Of a stretch of 64,000 nucleotides of DNA, positions 3,386 through 22,002 are shown piece after piece; positions within the stretch are counted from its first letter, which is position 1; every line of letters begins with the position of its first letter. The stretch comes from Prosthecobacter debontii. Its GTDB lineage: Bacteria > Verrucomicrobiota > Verrucomicrobiia > Verrucomicrobiales > Verrucomicrobiaceae. The translations under genes were made by a program, and so were the position numbers. The DNA is taken from positions 62,001-126,000 of the forward strand of contig NZ_FUYE01000007.1 of assembly GCF_900167535.1 (NCBI RefSeq), read 5' to 3'. The notes beneath the pieces were generated by a model. It was given only the letters and a program-made list of their open reading frames with translations. It had not been told where the DNA came from and made no database searches.

Positions 3386-3525
3386 GCTCAAGCCTACCCT
3401 GCTCCGCAAAATCTTGCAAGACGGTCTTGGGTCACCCAGCGTCGAAGTTCAGCGCTGCTCCTGCCTATGGGAGTTCATGGATAGGGCGCTGGGGCCTCCA
3501 AGCGCCTTATCGGCATCGAGCGTCT

Positions 3526-3605
3526 TTAGCGGCTGGAGGAGCCCAGCTGCGCGACTTGGCAGCCACTACATCATCCCGCCCCACGTGCTCAAAGCTCGCT
3601 GATAG
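3526..3605 (+). repeat. diverged intergenic repeat, copy 2
   Basis: Second copy of the element at 2906-2982: TAGCGGCTGGAGGAGCCCAGC, a TTGGCAGCC tract, and an end reading AAAGCTCGCTGATAG. It sits in the 418-base gap (3386-3803) between UPF0175 and the Argonaute gene. To its right, from about 3620, base composition drops sharply in GC, marking the left edge of the Argonaute island. No gene or clear terminator is visible in the rest of the gap. Confidence 0.5.
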
Positions 3606-3803
3606 AGCAAAGAAGGGGTGGTGGAATCCGATGAAGGTAGAGCTCGCAACAATCTCCTCAAACCCTTACGCAAATCGAATTCGCCATTCACTTTTCTGGA
3701 GGTTAGGCAACAGTGATGAGGCACCTCAGAGTATGTAACCTTAGTGAGGGCATGACATAATTATTTGAATATATACCTATCTTTTTTGAAGCGTTAAAAG
3801 GTG

Positions 3804-5246
3804 CTACATAAAATAACGAAATTGATAAGTTTGAGGATTCAGTGTGGGCATCCGTTTAATTACTCTAGCCAGTACTTGCGCGTATGCTAATGTGACAGGC
3901 AAGCGATCGTAAAGGCCATCGTTATTCCAATTCATTTTAGTCAAACCTAAAATGGCTTGGCAGTGAGGTTCCCAGCTTCCATGCCCTGCATATCTGCGCA
4001 ACATCAAGGGGGTGGGAATGCCTTTGCCTTCTTTATAGAAGTCCTTCCCGCCTACTGCGGTGGGAGCATTCCCTTGAGTCCACAACAACATCGTTCTTCC
4101 GTCTAATTGAAGTGAGGTGCCTCGATGGACTGGATAACCGTCAGGTGCACCTTTCGTTTTGTTAGGATCGGAGGGTGCGTGAATGAGAACTCCCCTCCAT
4201 CCGACATCTTGTTGAACTTGAATTAGATCAATGGCAAGAGAACCCCGAAATGCGTCAAAGCAACCTTCGATTTCATCAGATTTAAATTGTGTGGATTTGT
4301 GTACTACAACGCGTTGCGGAATCCTTCCCCCATGACGTCTTTGATAAAGTCCCAAGCTTCGACTCATAACTCGCCGCATCTCATTTCTACTAAGAAATGG
4401 ATTATCTCTTTCGACATGGACGTCATCGGTTTCGAAGGCAACAAATTCTAGACCAGAGCCTTCAGAGTCAAATACTTGGCTGCAACAAGTCACAAATCTT
4501 GACCCCTTCGATTGCTGCTCTCTCATGGCATAGCTTAGGCCTATGAAAGCTGTTTCAGGATCCGCACTAGCCATTTTCCATGGCACTCCTCCAGCTTTGC
4601 AATAAAGCGCTATAGACAATCTCCAGGCAACACTACAACGGCATTTGTATGTCAACGCATTATCAGTTATGATTTGCGTTGGAATGCCACGTGTTGCCAT
4701 CGTGGCCTTGAGGTAATCATGCAAATCAAAGCCATCAATCTCAGAGCTATAAAAACCAGCTTGCCATCGGTGAGGCAAATATATGGCAATAATGTCGAAT
4801 TCATGCCTGTGTGCTTCGACCACTGAAATTGCTCTGGAAAGCCCCTCTGCCAATGTTACATAAGGGGCTTTAGCATTATTCAATGCCTCATCGAAAGCTT
4901 GTGGAAATTCAAAAATTGCAGTGTCAGAAGCTATTTCAAGACCTACGCGGAAAATGCTAGTAAATCCAGGATATTCAGTGAGATATGCCCTTCGTTCACT
5001 TGGCCTGTGCCGCTGATGAAGTTCGGTTAATAAGCCTTTTACGAATTTTAATCCTCCAAATGGAGCGATTATTGCAATGCGTATCGGGTCTAAAACTGCT
5101 TGGAGTAAATTACGGCTATAAGGTCCAAAACGAACAAGCCCTATTAGTGGATGTTCTTCCACTTCTTGTCGACGCTCTGGGTGAAACAAAAGCCTCGCTT
5201 CTGGTAGCAGGAAATGGTCAGACAGTTGTGAAATTGGTGGGTTCAT
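3804..5246 (-). CDS. short prokaryotic Argonaute (MID-PIWI), SPARSA partner
   Basis: A 480-residue protein of the right size and layout for a short pAgo: MID plus PIWI only, no N-terminal or PAZ domains. The MID/PIWI junction reads LTYKCRCSVAWRLSIALY then KAGGVPWKM (about 198-225). The PIWI half has FIGLSYA (235-241), VVVHKSTQF (313-321), a GIPTPLMLRRYAG stretch (409-421) and the C-terminal LGLTKMNWNND (434-443) with LPVTLAYAQVLARVIK. Short pAgos normally lack the DEDX slicer tetrad and act as guide-directed sensors; I see no clear intact tetrad but cannot align it. Its ATG overlaps the stop of the SIR2-APAZ gene by 4 bases (ATGA). The pair should form a guide-loaded heterodimer. The gene is AT-rich relative to its flanks, suggesting horizontal acquisition. 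Confidence 0.88.
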   Translation of the reverse strand: MNPPISQLSDHFLLPEARLLFHPERRQEVEEHPLIGLVRFGPYSRNLLQAVLDPIRIAIIAPFGGLKFVKGLLTELHQRHRPSERRAYLTEYPGFTSIFRVGLEIASDTAIFEFPQAFDEALNNAKAPYVTLAEGLSRAISVVEAHRHEFDIIAIYLPHRWQAGFYSSEIDGFDLHDYLKATMATRGIPTQIITDNALTYKCRCSVAWRLSIALYCKAGGVPWKMASADPETAFIGLSYAMREQQSKGSRFVTCCSQVFDSEGSGLEFVAFETDDVHVERDNPFLSRNEMRRVMSRSLGLYQRRHGGRIPQRVVVHKSTQFKSDEIEGCFDAFRGSLAIDLIQVQQDVGWRGVLIHAPSDPNKTKGAPDGYPVHRGTSLQLDGRTMLLWTQGNAPTAVGGKDFYKEGKGIPTPLMLRRYAGHGSWEPHCQAILGLTKMNWNNDGLYDRLPVTLAYAQVLARVIKRMPTLNPQTYQFRYFM

Positions 5247-9141: not shown

Positions 9142-10035
9142 TCAGGCGCGCGGATGAAACCGTAAATGCACCTGTTTCAGCCGCTTTTGATCGACATGGG
9201 TGTAGATCTGCGTGGTGGCGATATCGGCGTGGCCCAGCATCTCCTGGATGACGCGGAGATCCGCGCCGTTGTTCAGCAGGTGGGTGGCGAAGGAGTGGCG
9301 CAGGAGGTGAGGGTGCACGCTTTCATCCAAACCGGCCTGACGTGCACGCTCGCGAACGATCTGCCACACACGCTCTCGCGTGAGGACCCCTCCGCGCACG
9401 GACAGAAAGATATGACTCTGCGTCTTTTTCGTCTTCACCAAAGCGGGGCGGCCCAGGCTGAGGTAGGCTTTCATGGCCTCCAAGGCGGCTGAGCCGATGG
9501 GGCAGAGGCGGGTTTTATTACCTTTCCCGGTCACGCGGATCCAGCCTTCCTCGACGCTGAGGTTCTCGAGGCGGGCATTCACCAGCTCGGAGAGCCGCAA
9601 GCCACTGGCGTAAAAAAGCTCCAGCATGGCACGATCTCGACGGTCCAGCGGGTCGAGTCCGGTGATGGACTCGACGAGCTGTCGGGCGGCGGCCTCATTG
9701 AGCGTATCAGGCAGGTGTTTCTCCTGACGTGGGGGCAGGATCGGCTCGGCGGGATCTCCCTGGCGTTTGCCCCGAGCCGCCAGCCAGCGGAAGAAGATTT
9801 TGATCGCGACCAGCTCGACCCGGGCACTGGAGGCCGCAAGGCCGTCTTTTTTTCGACGGGCGAGATAATCGGTCAGGTGCGGGGTGGTGACGGCCGAGAT
9901 GTCTTCAACGTTTTTGTCTTGTTTCAGCCAGGAAGCCAGGGCCTCCAAAACGCGGCGGACGAGGAGTTGGTAGTTCGTGGACAGACCTCGCTCGGTGGCG
10001 AGGTGCAGGATAAAACTGTCCAGAGCATCGGTCAT
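9142..10035 (-). CDS. xerD: tyrosine recombinase XerD
   Basis: 297 residues, the standard Xer length. The N-terminal core-binding domain covers about 1-105. The catalytic domain has R147 in SGLRLSEL, K171 in TGKGNKTR, H243 and R246 in HPHLLRHSFATHLL, H269 in LGHADIATT and nucleophile Y278 in QIYTHV, so all active residues are present. Xer recombinases resolve chromosome dimers at dif with FtsK. XerC versus XerD is decided by overall resemblance (HLLRHSFATHLLNNGADLR), and an integrase role is not excluded. No dif-like site was identified. Single gene, divergent from the cytochrome gene. Confidence 0.85.
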   Translation of the reverse strand: MTDALDSFILHLATERGLSTNYQLLVRRVLEALASWLKQDKNVEDISAVTTPHLTDYLARRKKDGLAASSARVELVAIKIFFRWLAARGKRQGDPAEPILPPRQEKHLPDTLNEAAARQLVESITGLDPLDRRDRAMLELFYASGLRLSELVNARLENLSVEEGWIRVTGKGNKTRLCPIGSAALEAMKAYLSLGRPALVKTKKTQSHIFLSVRGGVLTRERVWQIVRERARQAGLDESVHPHLLRHSFATHLLNNGADLRVIQEMLGHADIATTQIYTHVDQKRLKQVHLRFHPRA

Positions 10036-10106
10036 GGCAATGGGAGAGATTGTCGTGTAAAGCTAAGGACCTGTCATCTGCTGCGTTTGACTAGCAGCCC
10101 TCTCGC

Positions 10107-10664
10107 ATGAAACACCTGCCCGTATTTCTCATCACTGCCACCGCGGCCGCTGCGGCGGATTTCAAAAAGGACGTTCAGCCGATCTTGGAGAAAAACTGCT
10201 ACGAATGCCACAGCGAGAAGCATAACAAACGCAAGGCGGGCTATGTCTTTGATGATCTGGCGACGCTGAAGTTAGACATCAATCCGAAGGGGGCCATCGT
10301 GCCGGGGAATCCCAAAGAGAGTCACTTTTTTGAGGTCGTCTCGAATCCGGATCACAAGGCCCACATGCCACCGGATGATAACCTTTCCGCCAAAGACCTG
10401 GAAACCCTGCGCGAATGGATCACTGATGGGGCCATGCTGGATAAGGATGGGCCGAAGCCAGAACTGGTGCCGGTGAAGAAGGATCTGCCGCCGATCATGA
10501 GCTGGACGAACTTTGAGGGGAAAAAGATCAAAGCCGGGTTTGTGAAGCTGGAGGGGGACATGGTCTATCTGCGCATGCCGATCAACGGCAAGGAAGTACC
10601 CTATCCCATGGATAAGCTGGATGCGGCCAGCCAGCAGCAGGCGAAGGAGTGCGCGGCACCTTGA
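10107..10664 (+). CDS. secreted PSCyt1-type cytochrome c with C-terminal SHD1-like domain
   Basis: 185 residues with an Ala-rich signal peptide. The region reading FKKDVQPILEKNCYECH contains a single c-type heme motif CYECH (31-35), as in the planctomycete cytochrome C1 (PSCyt1) domain. The distal ligand region HKAHMPPDDNLS fits the same domain. The last 50 residues (MSWTNFEGKKIKAGF, then MPINGKEVPYPMDKL) resemble SHD1 (SLA1 homology) modules common in this phylum. Probably periplasmic electron transfer; partner unknown. Strong-looking single gene followed by a terminator shared with the facing MFS gene. Confidence 0.8.
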   Translation: MKHLPVFLITATAAAAADFKKDVQPILEKNCYECHSEKHNKRKAGYVFDDLATLKLDINPKGAIVPGNPKESHFFEVVSNPDHKAHMPPDDNLSAKDLETLREWITDGAMLDKDGPKPELVPVKKDLPPIMSWTNFEGKKIKAGFVKLEGDMVYLRMPINGKEVPYPMDKLDAASQQQAKECAAP

Positions 10665-10721
10665 GGGTGGAGGAGGTAAGGGTGCGGGCAGGAGTACCTA
10701 TTACCTCTATCACTTTTTGGA

Positions 10722-10753
10722 TAACAAAAAGGGCGGCATTGCTGCCGCCCTTT
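10722..10753 (-). terminator. intrinsic terminator between convergent genes
   Basis: Perfect 11-base stem AAAGGGCGGCA / TGCCGCCCTTT with a four-base loop. On the minus strand, for the MFS gene, it runs into TTTTTGTT. On the plus strand the U tail is only three long, so termination is mainly leftward. Confidence 0.8.
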
Positions 10754-10793
10754 GAGCTAAATGGATCGAGCGCCCAAGAGGCAGGGGCAGGAC

Positions 10794-12260
10794 TCAATGC
10801 TCCTGATCGGGATCAGGCTCCGGCAAGAATTGCGTGAGAATAGCACCGATCAAGGCATAAGCTCCTGCAACACAGGCTCCAACGATCGCGATACGAGCTG
10901 GATCGGGTTTATCGGAGGCCGCCAGAGTGAGCGTAATCCAGGCGGCAGCAGTCCCCAACACACGTCCACCGATGTTGGCAGCAAAACTCTCACCCGTGCC
11001 GCGTAGATGCATGGGGAAGACCAGAGGGATGTAGTTACCCCAAAAGCTGAACTGCGAAACCGTTAAGAAACCAGCGATGAAGATGCCGATCTTGATCATC
11101 CCGAGGCTCTCAGGATTGTTCAACTGGCCTGCAATCCACCAAAACAGGAGTGGCACGATGATGAGAGAGGGGATCTGAAATAGGCGAAACAAGGTCCGAC
11201 GACTGACGATGGCAACGGCCAGCAGTGCCAGGGCAATACGGCCCATCATGCCACCGATCTCCTGCCAGAAGGTAATCTTAGCCACCGCCTCATCGCTGGC
11301 ATTGCCGCCAATTTGACGTTTTTTGCCTACAGGCACTTCGGGTAAGCCTGCGGCCTTGGTCTCCTGCACAGCTTTACCAACAGCGGCTTTGGCGGTGGAA
11401 ATAATGGCCGCGTGGCCAGCTTCATTCGGCGTATTCAAGGCCTGGGCACCCAAGATTTGAGGGAGCTGCTGGATGGCCCCAAAAGCGATGCCATAGCTGG
11501 CGGCAAAGACAAGCGTGGTCAAAACAGTGGTCTTGACGAGTTCTGGAGCAAACAACTCGCGGATGCTCGGCCGCTTGAGGACTCCCGCTGCCTTCTTACG
11601 AGCCCATTCAGGCGACTCAGGGAGGAACGGACGAATCAGGATCAAAGGCAGTGCAGGGATAACACCGGAAATCAAGGTGTAGCGCCATGCTTCATGGCCT
11701 CCATGGATGGCTGGCAAATCCAGTGCCCACTTGGCGGCAAGGACGTTGGCACCAGCGACGAGCAGGCCACCAATGGAAGAGAAGGCCTGGGTGTAACCCA
11801 GCACTTTTTCACGTTGCACATTGTCTTTGAAAAGCTCTGCCAGCCAAGCCACCGCAGCGACGAACTCAACACACACACCGATGAATACAAGGCAGCGGAA
11901 TAAGAGAAGCTGATAGAGGTTTTGCGAAAACCCGGCCGCACATGCAGAGAATGCATACAACAAGATGCTGTAGGTCAGCACGCGACGACGGCCTAGGCGG
12001 TCCGTGAGATACCCCCCCAACAAGCCAAAGATACCGCCCGCCAACGCGGGAATGAAAAAGAGCATTCGCGCCCACTGGGTGAATTGTGGGGTGCCTGGTA
12101 AAAGGAGAGGAACTCCATCTGCACCGACTCCCCCCAATGATGCCAAGGCAGGTTTGACGATCAATGGCAACATCAGGAGCTCATAAATATCGAAAGCGAA
12201 GCCGATCGAGGCAATGATGCAGATCAACCATTGGGTGGAGGTGAGTTTTGGGGCGGGCAT
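10794..12260 (-). CDS. MFS transporter (sugar/organic acid type)
   Basis: 488 residues with twelve predicted membrane segments. MFS motif A lies between TM2 and TM3 (GGYLTDRLGRRRVL), and a motif-B-like stretch reads LLLFRCLVFIGVCVEFVAA. A central loop of about 60 residues is unusually polar (KAAGLPEVPVGKKRQIGG). It fits the broad sugar/metabolite:H+ symporter group. The substrate cannot be read from sequence. The neighbouring sugar-isomerase gene upstream on the same strand suggests a carbohydrate-related substrate, but a four-helix-bundle element separates the two. Confidence 0.85.
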   Translation of the reverse strand: MPAPKLTSTQWLICIIASIGFAFDIYELLMLPLIVKPALASLGGVGADGVPLLLPGTPQFTQWARMLFFIPALAGGIFGLLGGYLTDRLGRRRVLTYSILLYAFSACAAGFSQNLYQLLLFRCLVFIGVCVEFVAAVAWLAELFKDNVQREKVLGYTQAFSSIGGLLVAGANVLAAKWALDLPAIHGGHEAWRYTLISGVIPALPLILIRPFLPESPEWARKKAAGVLKRPSIRELFAPELVKTTVLTTLVFAASYGIAFGAIQQLPQILGAQALNTPNEAGHAAIISTAKAAVGKAVQETKAAGLPEVPVGKKRQIGGNASDEAVAKITFWQEIGGMMGRIALALLAVAIVSRRTLFRLFQIPSLIIVPLLFWWIAGQLNNPESLGMIKIGIFIAGFLTVSQFSFWGNYIPLVFPMHLRGTGESFAANIGGRVLGTAAAWITLTLAASDKPDPARIAIVGACVAGAYALIGAILTQFLPEPDPDQEH

Positions 12261-12283
12261 TGGGCGGGGTAGGGGAAGTTGGC

Positions 12284-12325
12284 AGTGGTTGAGCGATGGC
12301 TGAACGATTGTTGAGCAGTGGTTTA
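12284..12325. repeat. left arm of ~42-bp inverted repeat flanking a four-helix-bundle gene
   Basis: This arm carries GGTTGAGCGATGGCTGAACG, then TTGTTGAGCAGTGGTTT. It is the near-exact reverse complement of 12716-12757, with about four mismatches. The arm is internally repetitive (TGAGC/TGAAC/TTGAGC). The stop codon of the enclosed gene lies in its last bases. Confidence 0.85.
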
Positions 12326-12700
12326 AGAGACTTGGGAGCGCCGAAGCTGGGATTCTCGGAGATTGTTTATACGGACGCTGAGATCAAAAGCTGCATCGAG
12401 AACCGCATCCGCTTTTTCTTGGGGGATAAAACCCAGGTCTGTGGCGATGATTATGTCTGATGCCGTTTCCATCAAAGAACCGTAAGCTTGGTTGGAGAAG
12501 TGTGCTTGGTCCTTGAGGCTGGCTCGCACCGAACCTTCGGCCAGATTATTGGCGACAGGCACAGCAGCTCGATTGATCTGGCTTGTGATCCCATACAACT
12601 CGGCTTTGGGAAATGAACTCGTCTGTTCATAAACCGCACCTACGAGCCGACGTGCGTCCTGCCAGACTTCCAGCTTTTCAAAAGGAAACTGTTTTCTCAT
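12323..12700 (-). CDS. four-helix bundle protein (23S rRNA intervening-sequence/IVP-Avd family)
   Basis: 125 residues if started at MRKQFPFEKLEVWQDARRL; an in-frame ATG 11 codons earlier is possible. Family hallmarks are FEKLEVWQDAR, the SSFPKAELYGITSQINRAA segment, VPVANNLAEGS, and a late helix RINNLRES. The family (PF05635-like) is known from proteins encoded in intervening sequences of 23S rRNA genes and from Avd, an accessory of diversity-generating retroelements. Biochemical role unclear, probably nucleic-acid binding as a pentamer. The gene is enclosed by long inverted repeats and stands outside any rRNA gene. No reverse transcriptase is nearby. Confidence 0.85.
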   Translation of the reverse strand: MRKQFPFEKLEVWQDARRLVGAVYEQTSSFPKAELYGITSQINRAAVPVANNLAEGSVRASLKDQAHFSNQAYGSLMETASDIIIATDLGFIPQEKADAVLDAAFDLSVRINNLRESQLRRSQVS

Positions 12701-12715
12701 AGCGTCGGAATCTTT

Positions 12716-12757
12716 AAAACCACTGCTCAACAACCGTTCAGCTATCGCTCAGCCACC
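12716..12757. repeat. right arm of ~42-bp inverted repeat flanking a four-helix-bundle gene
   Basis: AAAACCACTGCTCAACAACC followed by GTTCAGCTATCGCTCAGCC, reverse complement of the arm at 12284-12325. A transcript across the gene would fold into a stem of about 40 base pairs enclosing the whole coding sequence. No target-site duplication is obvious outside the arms. Confidence 0.85.
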
Positions 12758-12769
12758 GCAAACACCATC

Positions 12770-13687
12770 TCATCCTAATTTCGGGCGGAGCATGTCGAGA
12801 ATCTTGGGAATCTCGATCATAGCGTCCGTGCCTTTCACCTCATATTCCAGAGTGAACCAGCCTTGGTAATTGGCGTCCTTGAGGATCTTGATCACGCGAT
12901 CCACATCGCTGGCTTCCTTGGTTTTGCCATCGGCGTGGGTGATCTCCATCTTGAGCTGCACGTTGATCGCATACGGGGCGATTTTGGCCAGATCACCGTA
13001 GGGGTCTTCCGTGTGGAAGTTGCCGCTATCCCAGTTGATGCCTGCCCAGGGACTCTTGGCTTCGCGCACGAGGTGGATCAGGTTCTCGGGTTTGGCGACC
13101 AAGCCATGGTGATTTTCCAGACCGAGGAAAATGCCCTTTTTACCCGCGTAGTCCAAACACTCCTGATAGGCCTCCAGGCAGTTGGCCAGGGCTTCTTCAT
13201 CCGGTGTGCCTTTCGGGGGCTGACCGGCGAAAACGCGGATGTGCGGGGCATTCATGACAGCTGCGTGGTCGATCCACTGCTTCACGTTGGCGATTTCTTG
13301 GTCGCGTTTTTCTCCCTTCGGAAGGGCGAAGTTATTGCCCACGGCAGTGCCTGCGAGTTGCACGCCACGCAGATACGCATGGCGCTTCACTTCCAGCAAA
13401 AAGGCTTCGTCCACATCGGGTGGGAAGAAGTAGCTGGTCACTTCGGCTCCCGGGACATTGTGATCTGCGCACCAGTCGATGAAATCCAGGATGCTCCAGA
13501 GCTTCTCGCCGTCTTTGGCCTTTTGCTCCTTGCCACGCGACCATTGGAACTTTTCGCGGAAGCTGTAGGCGGCGACACCGAGTTGCATGCGACTTTGACC
13601 AGCGCGGTTGATGGGCTCGATGGCTGGCAGGGCGGAGGCCCCGAGGGCGCTCAGACTGGTGGTGAGGAAGGAACGACGTGAAATCAT
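12770..13687 (-). CDS. sugar phosphate isomerase/epimerase (TIM barrel) with Tat-like leader
   Basis: 305 residues. The N-terminus ISRRSFLTTSLSALGASALP is a twin-arginine-type export leader. The body is an AP-endonuclease-2-like TIM barrel: MQLGVAAYSFREKF, IDWCADHNVPGAEVTSYFF, a glutamate in LENHHG, NWDSGNFHTEDP, and WFTLEYEVKGTDAM near the end. The Glu/His/Asp set matches metal-dependent xylose-isomerase-like enzymes. Exported members are very common in Planctomycetes/Verrucomicrobia and are usually annotated only as sugar isomerases; substrate unknown. It is followed by the inverted-repeat four-helix-bundle element. Confidence 0.85.
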   Translation of the reverse strand: MISRRSFLTTSLSALGASALPAIEPINRAGQSRMQLGVAAYSFREKFQWSRGKEQKAKDGEKLWSILDFIDWCADHNVPGAEVTSYFFPPDVDEAFLLEVKRHAYLRGVQLAGTAVGNNFALPKGEKRDQEIANVKQWIDHAAVMNAPHIRVFAGQPPKGTPDEEALANCLEAYQECLDYAGKKGIFLGLENHHGLVAKPENLIHLVREAKSPWAGINWDSGNFHTEDPYGDLAKIAPYAINVQLKMEITHADGKTKEASDVDRVIKILKDANYQGWFTLEYEVKGTDAMIEIPKILDMLRPKLG

Positions 13688-13730
13688 GGTGAGATTGGGG
13701 AGTGTAGTGAACGCAGCGCAGAAACGAATA

Positions 13731-15479
13731 TTAATTTTCCGGTGAGATTTGATTCTCTCGCACCGTCGCTTCCGCCTGTTGGACGGAAATGGGGGCTTGG
13801 TCCGTCAGATTGTAATCCCGGGCCATGCGAGGCTCGCGGACCAGATTCACTCGGCGGAGGGTGTTGTTTTCCACCATCACTCCTCGGGAAGCGGTGATGG
13901 TGATGCCATTGACGGCACAGTTTTCGATCTGGTTGCCCGTGATCGTGATGTTTTCATTGCCCAGGAAATAGCGGGTCTTTTCACCTTGGGGTTCGACACG
14001 ACCCATCAGGGTAATGGCTCCAGTGGTGTAGCTGTTTTTTTGGAGCAGGTTGGTCCCCTGAGCCACATCGCGAATGTGGTTGCCACGGATCTTGATGTCT
14101 CGGCACCAGCCCGCCTCTCTCCAAAACGCATACTCCGGGCCGATGGTGATAGCCACGCCCTTGAGTCGCTCGAATCGGTTGTTCTCGACAATCCCCTCAT
14201 TGCTCATCAATCTCAGTCCTCGGGCGCGATGATCGTGAAAATTGCTGTCCGTGATGGAAAAGCCCGGTGCACTGGTGGCGGGGACATCGCAGAAATCCCC
14301 TGGAGCCACGCCGGACACAGGTTGATCGAGGTGCACAAGATAGACCGCTCCAGGTTTTTCCTCTTTAGAGGTCGGCCAGAGTTTCTTCACATCGGCCTCG
14401 ATGCCCGCGTTTTTGCCGTCCTGGTATTCCACCTTCACCACCTTGGCTCGGGCAGTGACCTCAAAAACGGGTTCCTTGAGAAAACGGATCTCGTCACCTG
14501 CTCGGATCAGCCGGTCAAACCGATCTCCACGATGGGCGCGCATGGCAATGAAGGTGCGCTCATCCAACCAGCGGATCACGGGCAACATCACACCATGCAG
14601 ATTCACGGCATCATCCCCCATGAAGGAAAAATCGCAGTTTTTGAGGGTTGGCCCCTTGCGCACATAAGCGGCATTGAAGGCATCTGCGGAGGTGGAAAAC
14701 AGCCGTTCTTCGGTGGCTCCAGCCGGCTTGGGGCCGGGAACAATGCGCACATTTTCAAAGGTGCCCGCTTCCTCAGCAAAACGGATGAGAAAACCGATGC
14801 CAGGAGCCGAGTGAACGGTGACATCCTTGAAGGTGAGGCCCGCGCAACCCTCACCGATCAACACGCCTTGGCGCTTGCGCACATTGAGGACGATCCGGTC
14901 GCCCTTTTTTAAAGACTCGAACCCCGTGGCCTCCTGACTGAAAACGAGACGGCCTTTTCGAGGCGTGATCCGCTCGATTTTCTTGGGATAATAATCCGGC
15001 ACCCCCACCTTCCAACGGTTGGCTTCGGGTTCAAACAGATGAACCGTTTGACCCTCCAGATACACGTCCGTCAGATCTGGATACCCCGCGCTGACCTCGA
15101 AGTCAGCCGTCCTACCTTTGGCGTCAACCCCTGTGAGTCGGGCTTGAGTGAAGGGTAGAGGATCATAGTCCAGAGTAAGTCCCGTAATCGTCAAATTCTG
15201 ACAGTCATGAAACCGAAGTGCTGACGGACTGAGATCGGTGCCGAGGAGGGTAACTCCTTCAGCCCGCAAGGTTCGATTTTTCAGTCCTCGGAGTTGCAGT
15301 CCTTCCTTGGGTAAACGGTAGGTTCCTGGTGGAATCGTCAAGGTCGTTTCGGTGCCCGTAGCTAGGAGATCCAGCTTAGCTTGAAGCTCGTTCGCCGGGG
15401 CGCTGATGAGATCGCTCGCCGAATAAAGAAACCCGCTGAGGGTTACCAACAAGGTTTGAAGTAACATCTGCAATCTCAT
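13731..15479 (-). CDS. secreted right-handed parallel beta-helix protein
   Basis: 582 residues with a signal peptide (LLQTLLVTLSGFLYSAS). An N-terminal cap with TLTIPPGTYRLP is typical of pectate-lyase-3-like folds. It is followed by repeated coils with Asn ladders such as NLTITGLTLD, ENNRFERLKGVAITIG, IKIRGNHIRDVAQ, and ITITGNQIENC-NGITIT. This is a carbohydrate-active or carbohydrate-binding fold; the active site is not identifiable. It lies 43 bases upstream of the sugar isomerase on the same strand, so the two may be co-transcribed. A second beta-helix protein of the same architecture is at the right end of the window. Confidence 0.82.
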   Translation of the reverse strand: MRLQMLLQTLLVTLSGFLYSASDLISAPANELQAKLDLLATGTETTLTIPPGTYRLPKEGLQLRGLKNRTLRAEGVTLLGTDLSPSALRFHDCQNLTITGLTLDYDPLPFTQARLTGVDAKGRTADFEVSAGYPDLTDVYLEGQTVHLFEPEANRWKVGVPDYYPKKIERITPRKGRLVFSQEATGFESLKKGDRIVLNVRKRQGVLIGEGCAGLTFKDVTVHSAPGIGFLIRFAEEAGTFENVRIVPGPKPAGATEERLFSTSADAFNAAYVRKGPTLKNCDFSFMGDDAVNLHGVMLPVIRWLDERTFIAMRAHRGDRFDRLIRAGDEIRFLKEPVFEVTARAKVVKVEYQDGKNAGIEADVKKLWPTSKEEKPGAVYLVHLDQPVSGVAPGDFCDVPATSAPGFSITDSNFHDHRARGLRLMSNEGIVENNRFERLKGVAITIGPEYAFWREAGWCRDIKIRGNHIRDVAQGTNLLQKNSYTTGAITLMGRVEPQGEKTRYFLGNENITITGNQIENCAVNGITITASRGVMVENNTLRRVNLVREPRMARDYNLTDQAPISVQQAEATVRENQISPEN

Positions 15480-15642
15480 GAGGGGAGCGAAAGACGAGAA
15501 GATGATTGGGTATCGAAGGACAGCAAGGGCTACTGCACCTTGCTGCTATTGGAAAGAAGAGGGAACATAGAATGGCGATCGCCCATCAAAATGGCGCTGT
15601 AAAAACCCGTTAACGTCCAATCCTGCCGAATCACGAATCCAC

Positions 15643-15682
15643 CCAAAAGAAGAGCCCCAGCGGGTGTTCTCGCTGGGGCTCT
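15643..15682 (-). terminator. intrinsic terminator after the 2091-residue surface protein
   Basis: Perfect 12-base stem AGAGCCCCAGCG / CGCTGGGGCTCT with an 8-base loop. On the minus strand it is followed by TCTTTTGGG. It lies about 45 bases past the stop codon of the giant gene. Confidence 0.75.
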
Positions 15683-15726
15683 AGGCTTACCGGTGTTCGA
15701 TCTACAACCTTAGGGATTCATTCAGA

Positions 15727-18700
15727 TCACGGCTCAATAACGGTGATGGTGACCGTGCCGCTGGAAACCAGAGTGCCTCCATTGGCGTCGTTACCCACTT
15801 CGACTCGATAAGTGCCAGAATCACTGCCTGTGACGCCATTGATCTCAATGCTTGGCTGATCGGCTTGATCCTGGAGTTCGTTCTCATCCTTATACCAACG
15901 GTAGGTCAGGTCGCCGGTCGTCACATTCGGACCTGCTGTCAATTTGATGTTCCCCCCTGCTTCAATGGTGGTGGTGCCTTCCTCTAGAGTCAGCGAGACC
16001 GCAGTTACGGGATTGAGCTTTTCGAGAGCAACTTCGTTGCTCTCCACAGAGTTTTCCGTGTTCGTGACCACGACTGTGTAAACGCCATAATCATCCTCAA
16101 TGATGGCATCAATCACATAGTCTGCAGAGGTTGCCCCAGGAATGTCCTCACCATCCTTTTTCCACTGGTAAGAGAAGTCGGGCTGTCCTTGGGCAGACAC
16201 CGAGAAAGTCACGCCATCTCCCAAGGGCAAATACTGGTCCGCAGGAGAACGGGTAGCATTCACATTCGAGACTTCCGTGCTGACATTGAGAGATATCGGT
16301 GCGCTTTCTTGTCCGTCTGGCGTTGCTCCATTTTTAACGAGCACCGAGTAGTTGCCAACGCTATCGCTGTTTGCGGAACTGATGAAGTAGGTGGAATTCG
16401 TCGCCCCATTGATGTTCTCACCGTCTTTCTTCCATTGATAGGTGTAAGGACCCGTGCTGCCGGTAATGCTGGCAATGGTGAAGGTAACACTGGCCCCGAG
16501 TCCTACGCGGTCTGTCGAAGGGGTGCGTTGGGCAGTCACCGAAGTGATCGGGTTGGCCACCGTGATCGTTTTACTGCCGGTAACACCATTCGGCGTTGCT
16601 GCATTGGTGACCTTGACACTGTAGGTCGTATTGGAATCTGCAAGTGTCAGCGGCCCCACGGTGTAGGTGGAACCCGCTCCCGCTTCTCCTGGAATCTGAG
16701 TGCCATCTTTGCTCCAGCGATAAGTGAGCGTCCCTGTGCCGCCTGTGACGTTGGCTTTAAAAATCACAGTGCCATCCACGGGGAGGACGGCAGTATCGGG
16801 CTCAGTGGTGACCGTAACGCTAGTGATGGGTTTATTCAGCACCAATTCGGCCTCTTCGCTCTCCACGCGAGAATAGACCGTGGTGATGACCACATCATAG
16901 GAATCTTCATCCGCTGAGGTCACACCATTCACTGTATAAGACTTCACATTGACCCCTGCAGCAGTGGAGATGTTGACCCCGCCTTTTCTCCATTGATAAT
17001 AAACCTCGGTTCCAGGATTCACGGCCACATCAACCGTAAACGTGACATTCGCTCCGCTGTTCACAGTGACGGACTGAGGCTGCTGAGTGATCACCACCGG
17101 CAAAGGGTTGAGGCGCACGCTTCCTGACAGAATCGGAGAGTTTTTCAACGTCGTCACTGGATCGGTGGAAGGTAACTGCGGTAAGAGGAAGTGCCCCACC
17201 CCCGTAGGAGCGACACCCTCCAATTGCGTTCCATCGCTGGTGGTCACATCTGGAATGCGTGGAATGGCCAGACCATAGAAGGCGGCCTTACGTTTCCCTG
17301 CCGGATCGTTCAGCGTGAAACTACCGGTGATCAGGCCCGTGCTGCTGGCCATCTTCACGCTGGTCGCTGCCGGGTTTAGAATGCCGCTGTTTTTGGGAAT
17401 GGAAGCGGCTCCTTTGGAATCGATCCTGATGGCGCTCAAGTCGGGATTGAGGCTTGCTTGAGCCAAACCGGCACCCTCGAAGTCAATGGAGGCATTGCCT
17501 TGTGTCGTGGCTGTCGCAGGCAATGACATTGCATAAGGGGTGTTAGCCGGAGCAACATACGTGTAACCGCTGACCGCCACCCCGAGAGGGCCAAATCCCG
17601 CCTTGTACAAACGCTCTGAGGCTGAGGATTGAGGGTCTCTCGTCCAAACGAGTTCCCCGCCCACACGGTAAAGAGGGTAGACCTCATAAGCTGTACCGTA
17701 ATACGTAAGTGTCGGCATGCCAACGACTGAACCCGTGTTCTTGTAAAGTGACTGATAAACCAAGAATTGATTCTGTCCTCCCACGAAAGAACTGCTGGTA
17801 ATGGTCGTGCCATCTGCAGTCCGACCCGTAACCTTCACCGTGCCAGAGGGGTCGGATGTGATAACCATGAAGCCTGTCCCATGTGGGATAGAGTTGTCAG
17901 TCTCCTCGACATCGGTCACGTCAAGTGCGGCATGGTGCCTTCCGCTCCCCGTGTAGATCTCACCCGCCACTCGGTAGCGGTTTCGGTAAGCCACGAAATC
18001 CGCTGTATTGTGGCCATCGGAGATCGTGCCATAGACATCACCACTGTCTGTATAACCGGACAGATAAATGGCGCTGAATTCGATTTGGAGCGGTGTCAGT
18101 CCTTTGCGCGCGACCGTTGCGCTTCCACTGGTATAATAAGCCGTGAGATTGGTCGGTTGCTTCATGCTGCCGGTAAAGTTATAGACTTTTCCAGCTTGGC
18201 TTAGCTTACCACTGAGCGTTCCTCCTTCGGTGACGGTCATATCGATGCGTCCGCCTTTATTTCCGTTAAGAGCGTTGTTTCCAACCTGCCCGACAAAAAC
18301 GCCGACCACAGCTTCGGGCATCGGCCAAACCTTCAAGGGAATGTTGCTCACAATTTTGCTGCCGGCAGGGTTACTGACGGTGACTTTCAAGAAATAAGTC
18401 CCCGCACTTTTTGGAGCTCCCGTGATGCGGCCCGTGCTTGTATTCACGGTAAGCCCTGAAGGAAGACCTGAGATCGCGAAGGCCGAGATCGACTGGTTAG
18501 TGTCTGGATCCGCACCGGGAAGCAGGTAATCGTAAGGCATCCCGACAAAGGCATCATCTGGGACAAATGTATTGTAAACTGGAGGAGCTCCTGCCGCATA
18601 GACGCGCCAATCGCCTGACTGTTCAGAGATGCCTTCATCTTCTTTGACCCATGTGCAGGAATAACTCCCGCTGTCTGGAGTGGTTAAATTGATGTTAAAT

Positions 18701-21700
18701 TTTTTGATCACCAAAGTGGCGGTGCCCGCTCCGGAAATACGATCACTGTTTTGCACCACCGCGCCGCCCTTTTTCCAAATGTACTTCACGTTAGGGCTGA
18801 TCGGTCCAGCCACTTGCGCTTTAAGCGTCATGGTGCCCCCATTTTTCACAAACGCGCTGTAAGTGTTCCTATCGACGACAACGACGGTGGCGGTGTTGCT
18901 ATCCGCACGTCCTGCCGCACTGCTGGCTCTCACCATATAGGTGCCAGCGTCTGTCAACTTGGCCGAAGCAATGGTCAAGGTTGCCGATTTTTGCCCCGAA
19001 ACACCTTTACCGTTACGCAGCCAAGTGAAGGCAGGCACGGGAGCCCCTGTCGCCGCCGATTCGATTTTCAATTCCTCGCCTACTTCGACAATCTGCTTGG
19101 TCAGAGGCTGAGTGATGACCGGAGCTTCGCGAATGTCCACTCGGGCGGAGTTGCTCGTCACCGTGGTCATTTCATTGCTCACGACGACACGGTATTCACC
19201 TTCCTCATCAGGGCCATTGACGGCAGTGAAAGGGAGTGTCGCACTTTCAGCACCTGAAACATCCATCCAGGTCTCTCCATTCTTCTTTTGCCACTGATAC
19301 GCCAAAGTGGATCCTGTCGCTTTGACTGCGAGGGCTGCTTTTTTCCCGGCGACGACCGCCACTGATGTCGGCTGCTTGGAGATGACCGGGGGTTTATAAC
19401 TTTTAATGACATTCACGGTGAAGACCTGCTGAGTCACGTTCATGTCGAGGTCGTAGGCCTTGAGGGTGACGGTTCGAGATCCTGCCGTCTTGCCTTCAAC
19501 CAAGATGTCAGTTCCGTTCAAAATCGAAACGCCAGCAATCGCTTCTTCTCCAGCCGTTCCGGCCACGATTTCGTATCTAAAGATGGGCACTTCCCGCGCA
19601 CTCGTGATACGCACGGTCTTTGTGATATCCATCGTTGTCGGTGCCGTAGAGCCTGTAACGTCCATAGGGACCCCCGTCAGGGACGAAGCGGCTCCATCGA
19701 TAGCTACACCGACCGAATCTGACGTCGAGACGTATGAACCGACAGGCAGATCCGAAATGGCATCCACCGTAGTCATCCCGCTTCCAGCCACCCGACCAAA
19801 AACCGTGAAACCACCGTTTTGGTTATCGAGGGCCTGTGAATTAGAGGCGTCGTTATTATTGACCAAGTTAAAAAAGAAATCATGGGTAGCACTGTCCGGA
19901 CTTCCCCCGACTTTAGCGTGAGCGACACTACCCCGAACATTTGAAATTCCCGGCTCATTGAATGGAGATGGGCGCTTTACCAGCGAGGCAAAGTAGTAGG
20001 GGGATTGAGTCGGCACGTAGCCACCTCCCTGAAGGACAAAATCAGTGACGTTGCGATGAAAGATCACGCCATCGTAGGCTTTGTTATCTACATAACCCAT
20101 GAAGTTATTGACGGCTTCTGGCGTGAGGCTCGGGTAGAGCAGAAGATCGACCTGCCTATCGCCCGAGATCTGCAATCGAACGGCTTTTTCTGAATCGGCA
20201 TCGGTAAACTTGCCTTCCAGCGGAATGGTCAGTTGGGTCGCTGTGCCAACTGTGGCGCTAACGATTTGTGTGGCCGCCTGAGGTGAAGCTGGCCGCCTTA
20301 AAATACGCAGCGTCAGCGGCATGGAGGCGGAGTAGTTGATATAGTTCACCGTCATCGGACAAATGAAAACCCCGGATTGGGTCGGCGTGCCCGTGATGGT
20401 GCCGGCTGAGGCGTCAAATGAAAGGCCGTTCGGTAGGTCTTCAACAGTCCAGTCCACCTTGTTGACCGCATCCGAAACCGTCAAAGTGTAGCTGAAGCTA
20501 ACATCTTGCTGAGCAGGCTGATAAGGACGGCTGGTGAAGCCGTAACGCGCATAGGCAGAGGCAAAATTGCTCTCATCGGAGTTGTTGTCCTGATAGCGGG
20601 CGACAACTTTGAATTCATATTCCGTATCGGGTGTCAAAGCCACCCGAGCGGTTTGAGTTTCGTTCGACTGGTCAACCAAATAGGAATAGTAGTCCTCGAA
20701 TACAGTCCGATCTTTCACCGTGATACGCTTGCTGTCAGCCTGCATGGATTCCACGAGATACCATTCATCGTCTTCTGTCTCCTCGTCCACCTGACGCACA
20801 AAAACGTCGTAATTGGTTTCATCAACGGACGTGTCTTGCCAAGTCAAATCAACAGCACCCGACATACCGGATGTCGTGGCCACCAGCCCTTCGGGTTTGA
20901 TGAAAGGCATCTTATCTAGAGTAAAGACATTAGAGTAGTCTGAATCGATGGCAGTCAGAGAACTGCCCGAACTGACCGCCCGCATGCGCCATTCATAATA
21001 GGCGCCGGGTCCGATGGAGAAAATATAAGACGTTAGGTTTTTGTTGATCGAGACGGTAGTCCAATTGCTTGTAGATCCTGGTTCACGATAACCCACTTCG
21101 TAACTCGTTTCGTTGTCGCTGTTATCCTGCCAACTCAGCTTGACTCGAAGATTGTCCAATTTTTCAACCACAAGATTGGTCGGTGGGCTCAGTCTCGGGA
21201 CCTGATAAAAGGTAGAATTTGCAGGAGGATAATTACCCGAAGTGGGAGAGATGAAAACGCTGGCAAACTGCGCCGAGACTCCTTGTGCGGCATCGGTGTT
21301 TACGCGAGTGGCTCGGATCGCGAAGTTGTAGGATTCACCAGCCACGAGATTGTGCTGAACTTCCACTTGAGTGGTGTTAAAATACACCACGGATAACGGC
21401 TTGTAAGCACTGGCAGCTTCCGAATTTTTTTTGTAGAAAATCTGATAAAAGAGCTCTCCAGAGCTTCGGTCAGTCCAATTGAAGCGAAGAAATCCATCGC
21501 TCATCTCCGCCACCTTGAAGGACTCTGCCGCATTCAAATTGATGTAGTCTCCCGTGATGGCATAGCTTTGGGACGGACTCGCACTCACCTCCGTTTTGGT
21601 GCCGTTGTATTTGTAGGCCACAACCCGAAAATAAAGGGTCGAATCTTGAGTCGGGTCATAGGGCCCCCACACGTATTCCGTGCTATCCGCAGCGGCAGCC

Positions 21701-22002
21701 CCGACATACTCAAAAGGTCCGGTGCTGGCAAAGCCGGCTTCGATACGAAACCCGCTTTCATCCAGCGAGTTATCCTGCCAAGAGATTCGATAGACCCGGG
21801 CGGTCGTTTTAGCCCCCGTTGAATAGACGTTGCCGTTAGAATCGACTCCGTAAGTGGTCGCACTGATCCCAACATTTGAGGGGGCTTTAGGTGCAGCGGC
21901 CAAGGCGGGCGTTTCGAATCCCAAGCTGACCAAAACAGTCACCATAGGCAGCAGAAGCAGGGCACGTGCTCTGCAGGAAAACGAGCGAGATGAAGACAGC
22001 AT
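15727..22002 (-). CDS. giant secreted FN3 - cyclophilin - Ig-domain protein
   Basis: 2091 residues with a signal peptide (FSCRARALLLLPMVTVLVSL, ending ALAAA). From the N-terminus there are about four fibronectin-III-like domains (roughly 35-490, motifs such as YRISWQDNSLDESGF), then an Ig-like He-PIG segment. Next is a cyclophilin-type peptidyl-prolyl isomerase domain (about 605-760) with NNFMGYVDNKAYDGVIFHR, DFVLQGGG and GGFTVFGRV. Ig-like domains (about 870-1220) follow, then a ~400-residue module (about 1225-1630) also found in the other giant protein. Five further Ig-like repeats run to the end. There is no recognisable C-terminal sorting tag. Likely a cell-surface or secreted adhesion/assembly protein. 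Single gene, divergent from the FG-GAP gene. Confidence 0.85.
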   Translation of the reverse strand: MLSSSRSFSCRARALLLLPMVTVLVSLGFETPALAAAPKAPSNVGISATTYGVDSNGNVYSTGAKTTARVYRISWQDNSLDESGFRIEAGFASTGPFEYVGAAAADSTEYVWGPYDPTQDSTLYFRVVAYKYNGTKTEVSASPSQSYAITGDYINLNAAESFKVAEMSDGFLRFNWTDRSSGELFYQIFYKKNSEAASAYKPLSVVYFNTTQVEVQHNLVAGESYNFAIRATRVNTDAAQGVSAQFASVFISPTSGNYPPANSTFYQVPRLSPPTNLVVEKLDNLRVKLSWQDNSDNETSYEVGYREPGSTSNWTTVSINKNLTSYIFSIGPGAYYEWRMRAVSSGSSLTAIDSDYSNVFTLDKMPFIKPEGLVATTSGMSGAVDLTWQDTSVDETNYDVFVRQVDEETEDDEWYLVESMQADSKRITVKDRTVFEDYYSYLVDQSNETQTARVALTPDTEYEFKVVARYQDNNSDESNFASAYARYGFTSRPYQPAQQDVSFSYTLTVSDAVNKVDWTVEDLPNGLSFDASAGTITGTPTQSGVFICPMTVNYINYSASMPLTLRILRRPASPQAATQIVSATVGTATQLTIPLEGKFTDADSEKAVRLQISGDRQVDLLLYPSLTPEAVNNFMGYVDNKAYDGVIFHRNVTDFVLQGGGYVPTQSPYYFASLVKRPSPFNEPGISNVRGSVAHAKVGGSPDSATHDFFFNLVNNNDASNSQALDNQNGGFTVFGRVAGSGMTTVDAISDLPVGSYVSTSDSVGVAIDGAASSLTGVPMDVTGSTAPTTMDITKTVRITSAREVPIFRYEIVAGTAGEEAIAGVSILNGTDILVEGKTAGSRTVTLKAYDLDMNVTQQVFTVNVIKSYKPPVISKQPTSVAVVAGKKAALAVKATGSTLAYQWQKKNGETWMDVSGAESATLPFTAVNGPDEEGEYRVVVSNEMTTVTSNSARVDIREAPVITQPLTKQIVEVGEELKIESAATGAPVPAFTWLRNGKGVSGQKSATLTIASAKLTDAGTYMVRASSAAGRADSNTATVVVVDRNTYSAFVKNGGTMTLKAQVAGPISPNVKYIWKKGGAVVQNSDRISGAGTATLVIKKFNINLTTPDSGSYSCTWVKEDEGISEQSGDWRVYAAGAPPVYNTFVPDDAFVGMPYDYLLPGADPDTNQSISAFAISGLPSGLTVNTSTGRITGAPKSAGTYFLKVTVSNPAGSKIVSNIPLKVWPMPEAVVGVFVGQVGNNALNGNKGGRIDMTVTEGGTLSGKLSQAGKVYNFTGSMKQPTNLTAYYTSGSATVARKGLTPLQIEFSAIYLSGYTDSGDVYGTISDGHNTADFVAYRNRYRVAGEIYTGSGRHHAALDVTDVEETDNSIPHGTGFMVITSDPSGTVKVTGRTADGTTITSSSFVGGQNQFLVYQSLYKNTGSVVGMPTLTYYGTAYEVYPLYRVGGELVWTRDPQSSASERLYKAGFGPLGVAVSGYTYVAPANTPYAMSLPATATTQGNASIDFEGAGLAQASLNPDLSAIRIDSKGAASIPKNSGILNPAATSVKMASSTGLITGSFTLNDPAGKRKAAFYGLAIPRIPDVTTSDGTQLEGVAPTGVGHFLLPQLPSTDPVTTLKNSPILSGSVRLNPLPVVITQQPQSVTVNSGANVTFTVDVAVNPGTEVYYQWRKGGVNISTAAGVNVKSYTVNGVTSADEDSYDVVITTVYSRVESEEAELVLNKPITSVTVTTEPDTAVLPVDGTVIFKANVTGGTGTLTYRWSKDGTQIPGEAGAGSTYTVGPLTLADSNTTYSVKVTNAATPNGVTGSKTITVANPITSVTAQRTPSTDRVGLGASVTFTIASITGSTGPYTYQWKKDGENINGATNSTYFISSANSDSVGNYSVLVKNGATPDGQESAPISLNVSTEVSNVNATRSPADQYLPLGDGVTFSVSAQGQPDFSYQWKKDGEDIPGATSADYVIDAIIEDDYGVYTVVVTNTENSVESNEVALEKLNPVTAVSLTLEEGTTTIEAGGNIKLTAGPNVTTGDLTYRWYKDENELQDQADQPSIEINGVTGSDSGTYRVEVGNDANGGTLVSSGTVTITVIEP

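Follow-up and report, generated by a model that had tools for sequence, protein, structure and literature searches.

A 64,000-nucleotide stretch of the genome of the verrucomicrobium Prosthecobacter debontii (assembly GCF_900167535.1, contig NZ_FUYE01000007.1, positions 62,001 to 126,000; hereafter, the window) contains a gene for a four-helix-bundle (FHB) protein of the PF05635/TIGR02436 family that is enclosed by two inverted repeat arms. Arms of this kind flank most of the FHB genes surveyed in the genus and across bacteria, and the FHB protein together with its matched arms very probably constitutes a single unit; the association of the protein with the repeat suggests that this unit is ancient. 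The interpretation that is preferred here, namely, that the window harbors an element of the intervening sequence (IVS) type outside rRNA, with the protein and the repeat hairpin forming one unit, appears to have an even chance of being correct. To our knowledge, genes of the PF05635/TIGR02436 family are common and their function is unproven; the family-wide association with a matching repeat hairpin offers a concrete substrate on which FHB proteins can be tested.

A preliminary description of the window, made from the sequence alone, had recorded near-perfect inverted arms with about four mismatches. This is accurate for the inner 43 nt, which hold 4 of the 7 mismatches; in full, the arms are 53 nt each, complementary at 46 of the 53 positions (87%) and separated by 380 nt. 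Overlooked at that stage was the array nature of the arms, which are not unique sequence but tandem, degenerate 10-11-mers: along the direction of the gene, the 5' arm reads GTTTGCGGTG GCTGAGCGATA GCTGAACGGTT GTTGAGCAGTG GTT, and the 3' arm is the inverted counterpart of this array. The assignment of the gene as IVP/Avd-like holds, with matches of the protein to PF05635 (E-value 5.3e-29, 101 bits, compared with the curated cut-off of 33.8) and to TIGR02436 (2.7e-26, 91.9 bits, cut-off 24) that place it firmly within the family. As also described, the stop codon (12323-12325) lies inside one of the arms, the 3' one; the TTG start in the list of open reading frames (ORFs) is located farther upstream than the ATG start of the gene. 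The inverted repeats at the ends of the unit can pair into a stem, as those of an IVS do, and the RNA of the unit is predicted to fold with -191 kcal/mol (z -7.0 relative to dinucleotide shuffles).

The generality of this architecture was assessed in two sets of loci (L and G numbers designate loci and genomes, respectively). In the genus group of 48 genomes, there are 230 PF05635 matches, with at least one in 47 of the 48 genomes and a single one in the genome from which the window comes; the 91 loci fetched for the genus set are mostly the higher-scoring of these 230 and not a random draw. The wide set comprises 80 loci from a named genome collection, the best 80 of at least 575 confirmed relatives. 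Arms were scored by aligning each upstream flank to the reverse-complemented downstream flank, with a threshold of at least 30, and other genes from the same loci served as the control; one stretch without a stop codon (L049) was excluded from the genus count. Arms reach the threshold at 66 of the 90 FHB genes in the genus, compared with 1 of 74 control genes, and at 62 of 79 in the wide set, compared with 3 of 84. In a cross-locus null for the wide set, 62 of the 80 loci reach a score of 30, as against 2.2% of the cross-locus pairings. The arm-positive wide loci represent at least 10 phyla (by record titles): Verrucomicrobiota, Bacteroidota, Planctomycetota, Acidobacteriota, Pseudomonadota, Gemmatimonadota, Bacillota, Elusimicrobia, KSB1 and Patescibacteria. 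None of the 20 loci of the wide set that were scanned for rRNA, out of the 80, produced a match. The preliminary description had proposed a search for further copies of the arms, and these are indeed not unique to the window locus but present around homologous genes in relatives. Chance or local duplication of the arms at the window locus alone, with which the paucity of other sites of the window unit in the same genome would agree (one weak match and four further sites by a looser pattern), is refuted by these counts, and the probability that remains for it is negligible.

Two of the surveyed loci have additional features. Near an FHB locus of one KSB1 bacterium (L129), two matches to the Acido-Lenti-1 RNA lie at 3489-3534 and 4062-4107. 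At L039, the 3' array of the FHB element is interrupted by an insert of about 2 kb with a 443-aa reverse-transcriptase-like ORF (3487-4818; by eye of the group II intron type), an insert absent from the orthologs L013 and L021.

The best array periods are mostly 7 (or 14), 8 and 10. The units vary widely across loci and are shared by both arms of one locus, as reflected in the 5-mer cosine of the left and right units, 0.64-0.66 within loci vs 0.05-0.07 between loci, the within-locus value being favored because arms are picked by their match. A test of the register, that is, the order of units (median z of 1.8 and 1.7), is biased by the optimally chosen alignment and was not used. The identity of the proteins predicts the similarity of the units, both in the genus (Mantel r 0.816, p 0.0005; 64 of the 91 loci, those with arms, with orthologs weighing in) and in the wide set (r 0.402, p 0.0005; 61 of the 80 loci). 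For example, the GTAGGCA unit is common to Mesorhizobium and a metagenome-assembled genome of Thermoguttaceae, the FHB proteins of which are about 53% identical. This correlation between unit and protein, which is one of sequences, suggests that the protein may act on its own repeat. The arms are also polar, the G-rich array being the 5' arm at 57 of 64 genus loci and 57 of 61 wide loci, compared with an excess of G over C in 78 of 165 control 40-mers; this bias points to a single strand or RNA as the recognized form more readily than to double-stranded DNA.

Two narrower explanations of the arms were rejected. Selection on the stem in sense RNA, tested by wobble polarity, received no support, with 53 sense-wobble and 72 antisense-wobble mismatches, next to 160 transversions, at 63 loci. 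The stem-protected transcript suggested in the preliminary description thus finds no support in the one sequence test that bears on it. In-frame stop codons as the purpose of the unit were considered as well, and stops in all three frames are found at 23 of 61 wide loci (6.0 expected) and at 5 of 64 genus loci (5.1 expected), that is, the enrichment is confined to the wide set and so provides no general reason for the unit.

That the two arms at a fixed site change the unit together, and that the array copy number varies between orthologs, could result from mutation alone, if slippage and template switching create and match inverted arrays that are useful as 3'-end structures, with the FHB gene as a tolerant passenger. 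Heptamer hairpins are indeed known in Xanthomonas, in a description the available part of which leaves FHB genes unmentioned (PMC4692102). Such a mutational origin is nevertheless quite improbable, because it leaves unexplained why arms occur at FHB genes but mostly not at control genes of the same loci, and why units and proteins vary together from phylum to phylum.

The neighbors of the FHB genes are mostly co-directional. Both have the direction of the FHB gene at 68 of 88 genus loci and 60 of 73 wide loci, and the upstream neighbor is divergent at 2 of 88 and 1 of 73 FHB genes. Among background triples, counted after turning to the strand of the center gene, both neighbors are co-directional in 79 of 156 (genus) and 119 of 177 (wide), and the upstream one is divergent in 30 of 156 and 24 of 177, respectively. 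The FHB counts omit FHB genes at stretch ends (2 genus and 7 wide) and one without a stop codon, and depend on a gene caller with its own codon model that seems to have miscalled some strands (for example, at L023, L043 and L050, the orthologs of which are called co-directional). At L084 and L086, the FHB element lies between gyrB and gyrA (gene names by eye). In the window, no sigma-70-like promoter was found in 12100-12900, which makes it likely that the FHB gene would be made by read-through transcription.

The repeats also occur without the gene. The repeat pattern AGGCARTAGGCARTAGGCA was scanned in genomes, with the reversed pattern as the control, and is contained in all 8 genomes selected for FHB arms with the AGGCARTAGGCA unit (9-416 matches, own arms included), compared with one of 6 genomes with other arm units (1 match) and 0-3 matches per genome for the reversed control. 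In the Mesorhizobium genome G048, which has four FHB genes, 6 of the 7 pattern sites lie apart from these. Inspection of 38 Mesorhizobium sites, two of which (L235, at a contig end, and L299) were dropped as having no array near the center, revealed an inverted partner array at 30 of the remaining 36, with a total span of 60-211 bp; 29 of these 30 paired sites are G-rich first, and L290 has an extra C-rich array in front. No called gene is located inside these 30 paired hairpins, and tblastn with a Mesorhizobium FHB protein found nothing at 37 of the 38 sites. At the 35 sites with both neighbors called, these are convergent in 14 cases, co-directional in 21 and divergent in none. Downstream of an aconitase-like gene (acnA, name by eye), a hairpin directly follows the stop codon in all 30 Mesorhizobium orthologs fetched (60 genomes with a match), with a unit that differs among species and two arms that match (by eye). 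The 211-bp array pair L280 (G074), situated at the Mesorhizobium element site, holds remnants of an FHB gene (tblastn), which implies that there, too, decay of the gene can leave an element that is almost gene-less.

In the P. debontii genome itself, a pattern with 3 mismatches allowed yields the four further sites mentioned above, namely, two gene-less hairpins of the window unit (L367 and L368) and two single arrays (L364 and L366), all classified by eye, so that gene-less copies of the arms, the search for which had been proposed, do exist. In the center of L366, arrays of different units, GTTGAGCGGTG and GGTCAAG, stand side by side, and GGTCAAG resembles the arms around FHB genes of a different type in the genus (by eye). 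At L004 of the same genome (1501-1560 and 1066-1130), one single array of the window unit and another array, of the TCAGTGG unit, are flanked by terminase-like genes in what looks by eye like a prophage.

Close relatives illuminate the history of the window copy. The FHB type defined by the regular expression FPFEKLE[VL]WQ is represented by 21 loci and, in many genomes, adjoins the same isomerase gene as in the window. Among the 30 isomerase loci fetched, tblastn detects the FHB gene downstream in 16, missing at least L101 and L120, where it is known. Three of the loci without a tblastn match were inspected. At L098 (G023), both arrays persist around a truncated gene that has an internal deletion; at L099 (G034), nothing but the 3' end of the gene and the array there is left; at L097 (G005), the gene and the arms are lost next to an isomerase that is 94% identical, an empty site of the kind that the preliminary description suggested looking for. 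This decay and loss, combined with the shared position, indicate that the FHB gene is dispensable and that the window copy is old; it is inherited with its neighbors and is probably not moving. Alignments of orthologs cover the flanks and are often interrupted at the arms, which implies that the arms turn over and yet stay matched.

The same data bear on a regulatory, non-mobile module, in which the FHB protein would bind hairpin RNA and control its own mRNA via the arms, the gene-less 3'-end hairpins would make up a regulon (processing, termination or 3'-end protection), and presence and absence would come from gene loss and recombination. The location of the gene-less hairpins at gene ends, with 0 of 35 between divergent genes, the rarity of divergent upstream neighbors at FHB genes, the correlation of the unit with the protein and the retention of the acnA hairpin despite the change of unit all agree with such a module, and an additional C-rich array directly before the ATG at 6 of the 21 orthologous loci (L020, L026-L029 and L057; by eye) could compete for the 5' array. 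The fast turnover of the unit at a fixed site, the retention of hairpins in FHB-less genomes, the negative sense-wobble test and the persistence of both arrays at the decayed gene of G023 do not, and render this possibility rather unlikely.

Mobility is addressed most directly by the Mesorhizobium FHB type with GTAGGCA arms, which sits between acyl-CoA-dehydrogenase-like and hydroxyisobutyrate-dehydrogenase-like genes (names by eye). In at least 84 of 146 genomes, a query made by joining the two flanks matches without interruption, denoting an empty site; a few of these genomes have 25-56 extra bases. The 30 empty alleles fetched contain an ordinary short intergenic region without arrays; in the 21 filled alleles, the element occupies the identical point, and the array sometimes supplies the stop codon of the upstream gene. 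On flank trees of 50 genomes (21 filled and 29 empty, one empty row having been dropped as short), parsimony counts 12 changes between the filled and empty states for the upstream flank, 11 for the downstream flank and 12 for both, with 7-8 forced by supported branches, and the state is more clustered on the tree than in shuffles. Homing, repeated precise loss or allele exchange may underlie this alternation.

Several observations weigh against the reading of these units as IVS-type elements. Arms score below 30 at 24 of the 90 genus and 17 of the 79 wide FHB genes, and no nuclease, transposase or polymerase family was matched by the window FHB protein, which has matches only to families of the PF05635/TIGR02436 type and none in PHROGs or PADLOC. 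The window element is positionally conserved across much of the genus, with losses. The only near-identical pair seen within one genome of the genus (L024/L038 in G011), considered as a case of in-genome transposition, shares flanking sequence, so that segmental duplication is likelier than clean transposition. In Mesorhizobium, no target-site duplication was seen by eye, with no systematic search made; the filled and empty alleles also differ beside the downstream ATG, that sequence travelling with the element, which makes allele exchange by recombination possible. Furthermore, 16 of the 28 FHB-lacking Mesorhizobium genomes retain the repeat. The number of hairpins elsewhere is higher in genomes with filled than with empty alleles (median of 18 vs 7 extra matches, 21 vs 29 genomes; one-sided p 0.034 without tree correction), and a test that takes the tree into account does not reach significance (8 independent pairs, p 0.125). 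When genomes are divided by FHB presence, the means are 13.9 vs 5.25 matches (one-sided p 0.014, ignoring the tree and with 8 of the 28 FHB-less genomes assigned by elimination), and the comparison of interrupted with contiguous sites over all 146 genomes gives p 0.11, with sites with diverged flanks included among the 62 'interrupted' ones. The absence of a sense-wobble excess belongs on the same side. The earlier suggestion of an IVS-like mobile unit is thus upheld in part: the filled and empty alleles of Mesorhizobium and the dispersed gene-less hairpins speak for it, and the shared position in the genus and the lack of a target duplication by eye speak against it. Mobility of FHB elements is plausible and is not evident at the window locus.

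If the IVS-type reading is correct, the element, lying between mostly co-directional genes, would be transcribed as a whole by read-through, the G-rich 5' array would pair with the C-rich 3' array, and the FHB gene would be held in the loop. The FHB protein, probably pentameric, would recognize hairpins of its own repeat unit, both in cis and at gene-less hairpins. Such recognition would maintain the protein-plus-repeat unit and could have spread it, in a homing-like manner, to sites at gene ends. A more ambitious formulation, which is possible but on the unlikely side, posits a widespread and so far undescribed class of bacterial elements, in which a pentameric FHB protein and the cognate hairpin co-spread by a homing-like process to gene ends, the gene-less hairpins would be miniatures maintained in trans, the protein would drive the fast and concerted turnover of units in the two arms, and the 23S rRNA IVSs with S23p would be the few copies that landed in rRNA.

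Table 1. The FHB element of the window and the adjacent genes.
Feature	Coordinates	Strand	Details
FHB gene, 125 aa, ATG start	12323..12700	minus	PF05635/TIGR02436 profile matches, ORF list; stop codon within the 3' arm
5' arm, upstream of the FHB gene	12711..12763	minus	Coding strand: G-rich array of degenerate 10-11-mers
3' arm	12278..12330	minus	Coding strand: C-rich inverted copy of the array; overlaps the FHB stop codon
Xylose-isomerase-like TIM barrel (AP_endonuc_2, PF01261)	12770..13687	minus	Upstream co-directional neighbor; conserved site flank in the genus
MFS transporter (PF07690/PF00083)	10794..12260	minus	Downstream co-directional neighbor

Profile matches of the adjacent genes (Table 1) and an Rfam scan of 10000-16000, which gave no match, agree with the location originally given, between an MFS and an isomerase gene and outside rRNA. 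Only 6 nt separate the stop codon of the isomerase gene from the 5' arm. Farther along the window (15727-22002) lies an ORF of 2091 aa that has the look of a secreted repeat protein.

Repetitive extragenic palindromic (REP) elements with REP-associated tyrosine transposase (RAYT) genes and miniature inverted-repeat transposable elements (MITEs) combine many copies of a short palindrome with a rarer, gene-bearing version that has the same flanking palindrome; the RAYT enzyme belongs to the Y1 transposases. The FHB protein differs in that it matched no Y1 transposase family, and the FHB arms differ in being tandem arrays that vary between loci.

With respect to the published record, which is considered here through parts of the cited papers, no link of the FHB family to cognate repeats outside rRNA is apparent in titles and abstract openings of the open-licence articles listed. 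In Flavobacterium columnare 94-081, the genes for guanylate kinase, a four helix bundle protein and nicotinic acid mononucleotide adenylyltransferase follow one another with gaps of about 35 bp (PMC5524665), a row that resembles arrangements around FHB genes seen in the survey. The 23S rRNA IVP appears among the domains in a figure of CRISPR-linked genes (PMC10910872), possibly because short tandem repeats near FHB genes were taken as arrays. Among solved structures, XCC0516 (2gsc, profile E-value 1.3e-30), from which the fold is known, and 2rld come closest. Avd of the diversity-generating retroelements is a structural homologue of the FHB protein, its structure 4DWL having been compared with PF05635 2GSC (PMC10053308); in the list of window ORFs between 8000 and 17000, nothing was noticed that resembles a reverse transcriptase, a template or a variable repeat, with no search aimed at them.

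The GGGAATC heptamer arrays of Xanthomonas number 186 and 183 in two genomes, with 70 and 75 convergent pairs, and lie at a mean distance of 28 nt after the upstream ORF (PMC4692102). They are similar to the FHB repeats in being dispersed, G-rich and often arranged in convergent pairs, and Xanthomonas also encodes the FHB protein XCC0516; however, the part of that report considered here draws no link to an FHB gene. Likewise, a description of TAACTGA repeats, in its available part, leaves the FHB family unmentioned (PMC4679880).

The closest parallel is the IVS of Coxiella burnetii, a 428-nt unit in the 23S rRNA that carries the S23p gene, has inverted-repeat ends and is excised by RNase III; heptamer repeats (GACAGAT) precede the ATG in 2-3 copies, a number that varies among strains, and S23p is called expendable; the Xanthomonas FHB protein is stated to be a homopentamer of four-helix bundles (PMC4990558). 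Among the papers listed, this is the only one, in the part seen here, that joins heptamer repeats with the S23p gene, and it does so in an rRNA IVS. The likeness to IVSs drawn in the preliminary description is thereby extended: an S23p-type protein, a unit of about 430 nt, inverted-repeat ends that can form a stem, a mostly sense orientation and short repeats are common to both. The window unit differs in its location between protein-coding genes, in arms that are longer tandem arrays and in the existence of gene-less hairpin copies; being outside rRNA, it is not an IVS in the strict sense, although it has the same parts. The link between FHB proteins and cognate repeats would unite rRNA intervening sequences, dispersed heptamer repeats and Avd-like proteins, and the Coxiella 23S rRNA IVS looks like a special case of the repeat-flanked FHB element.
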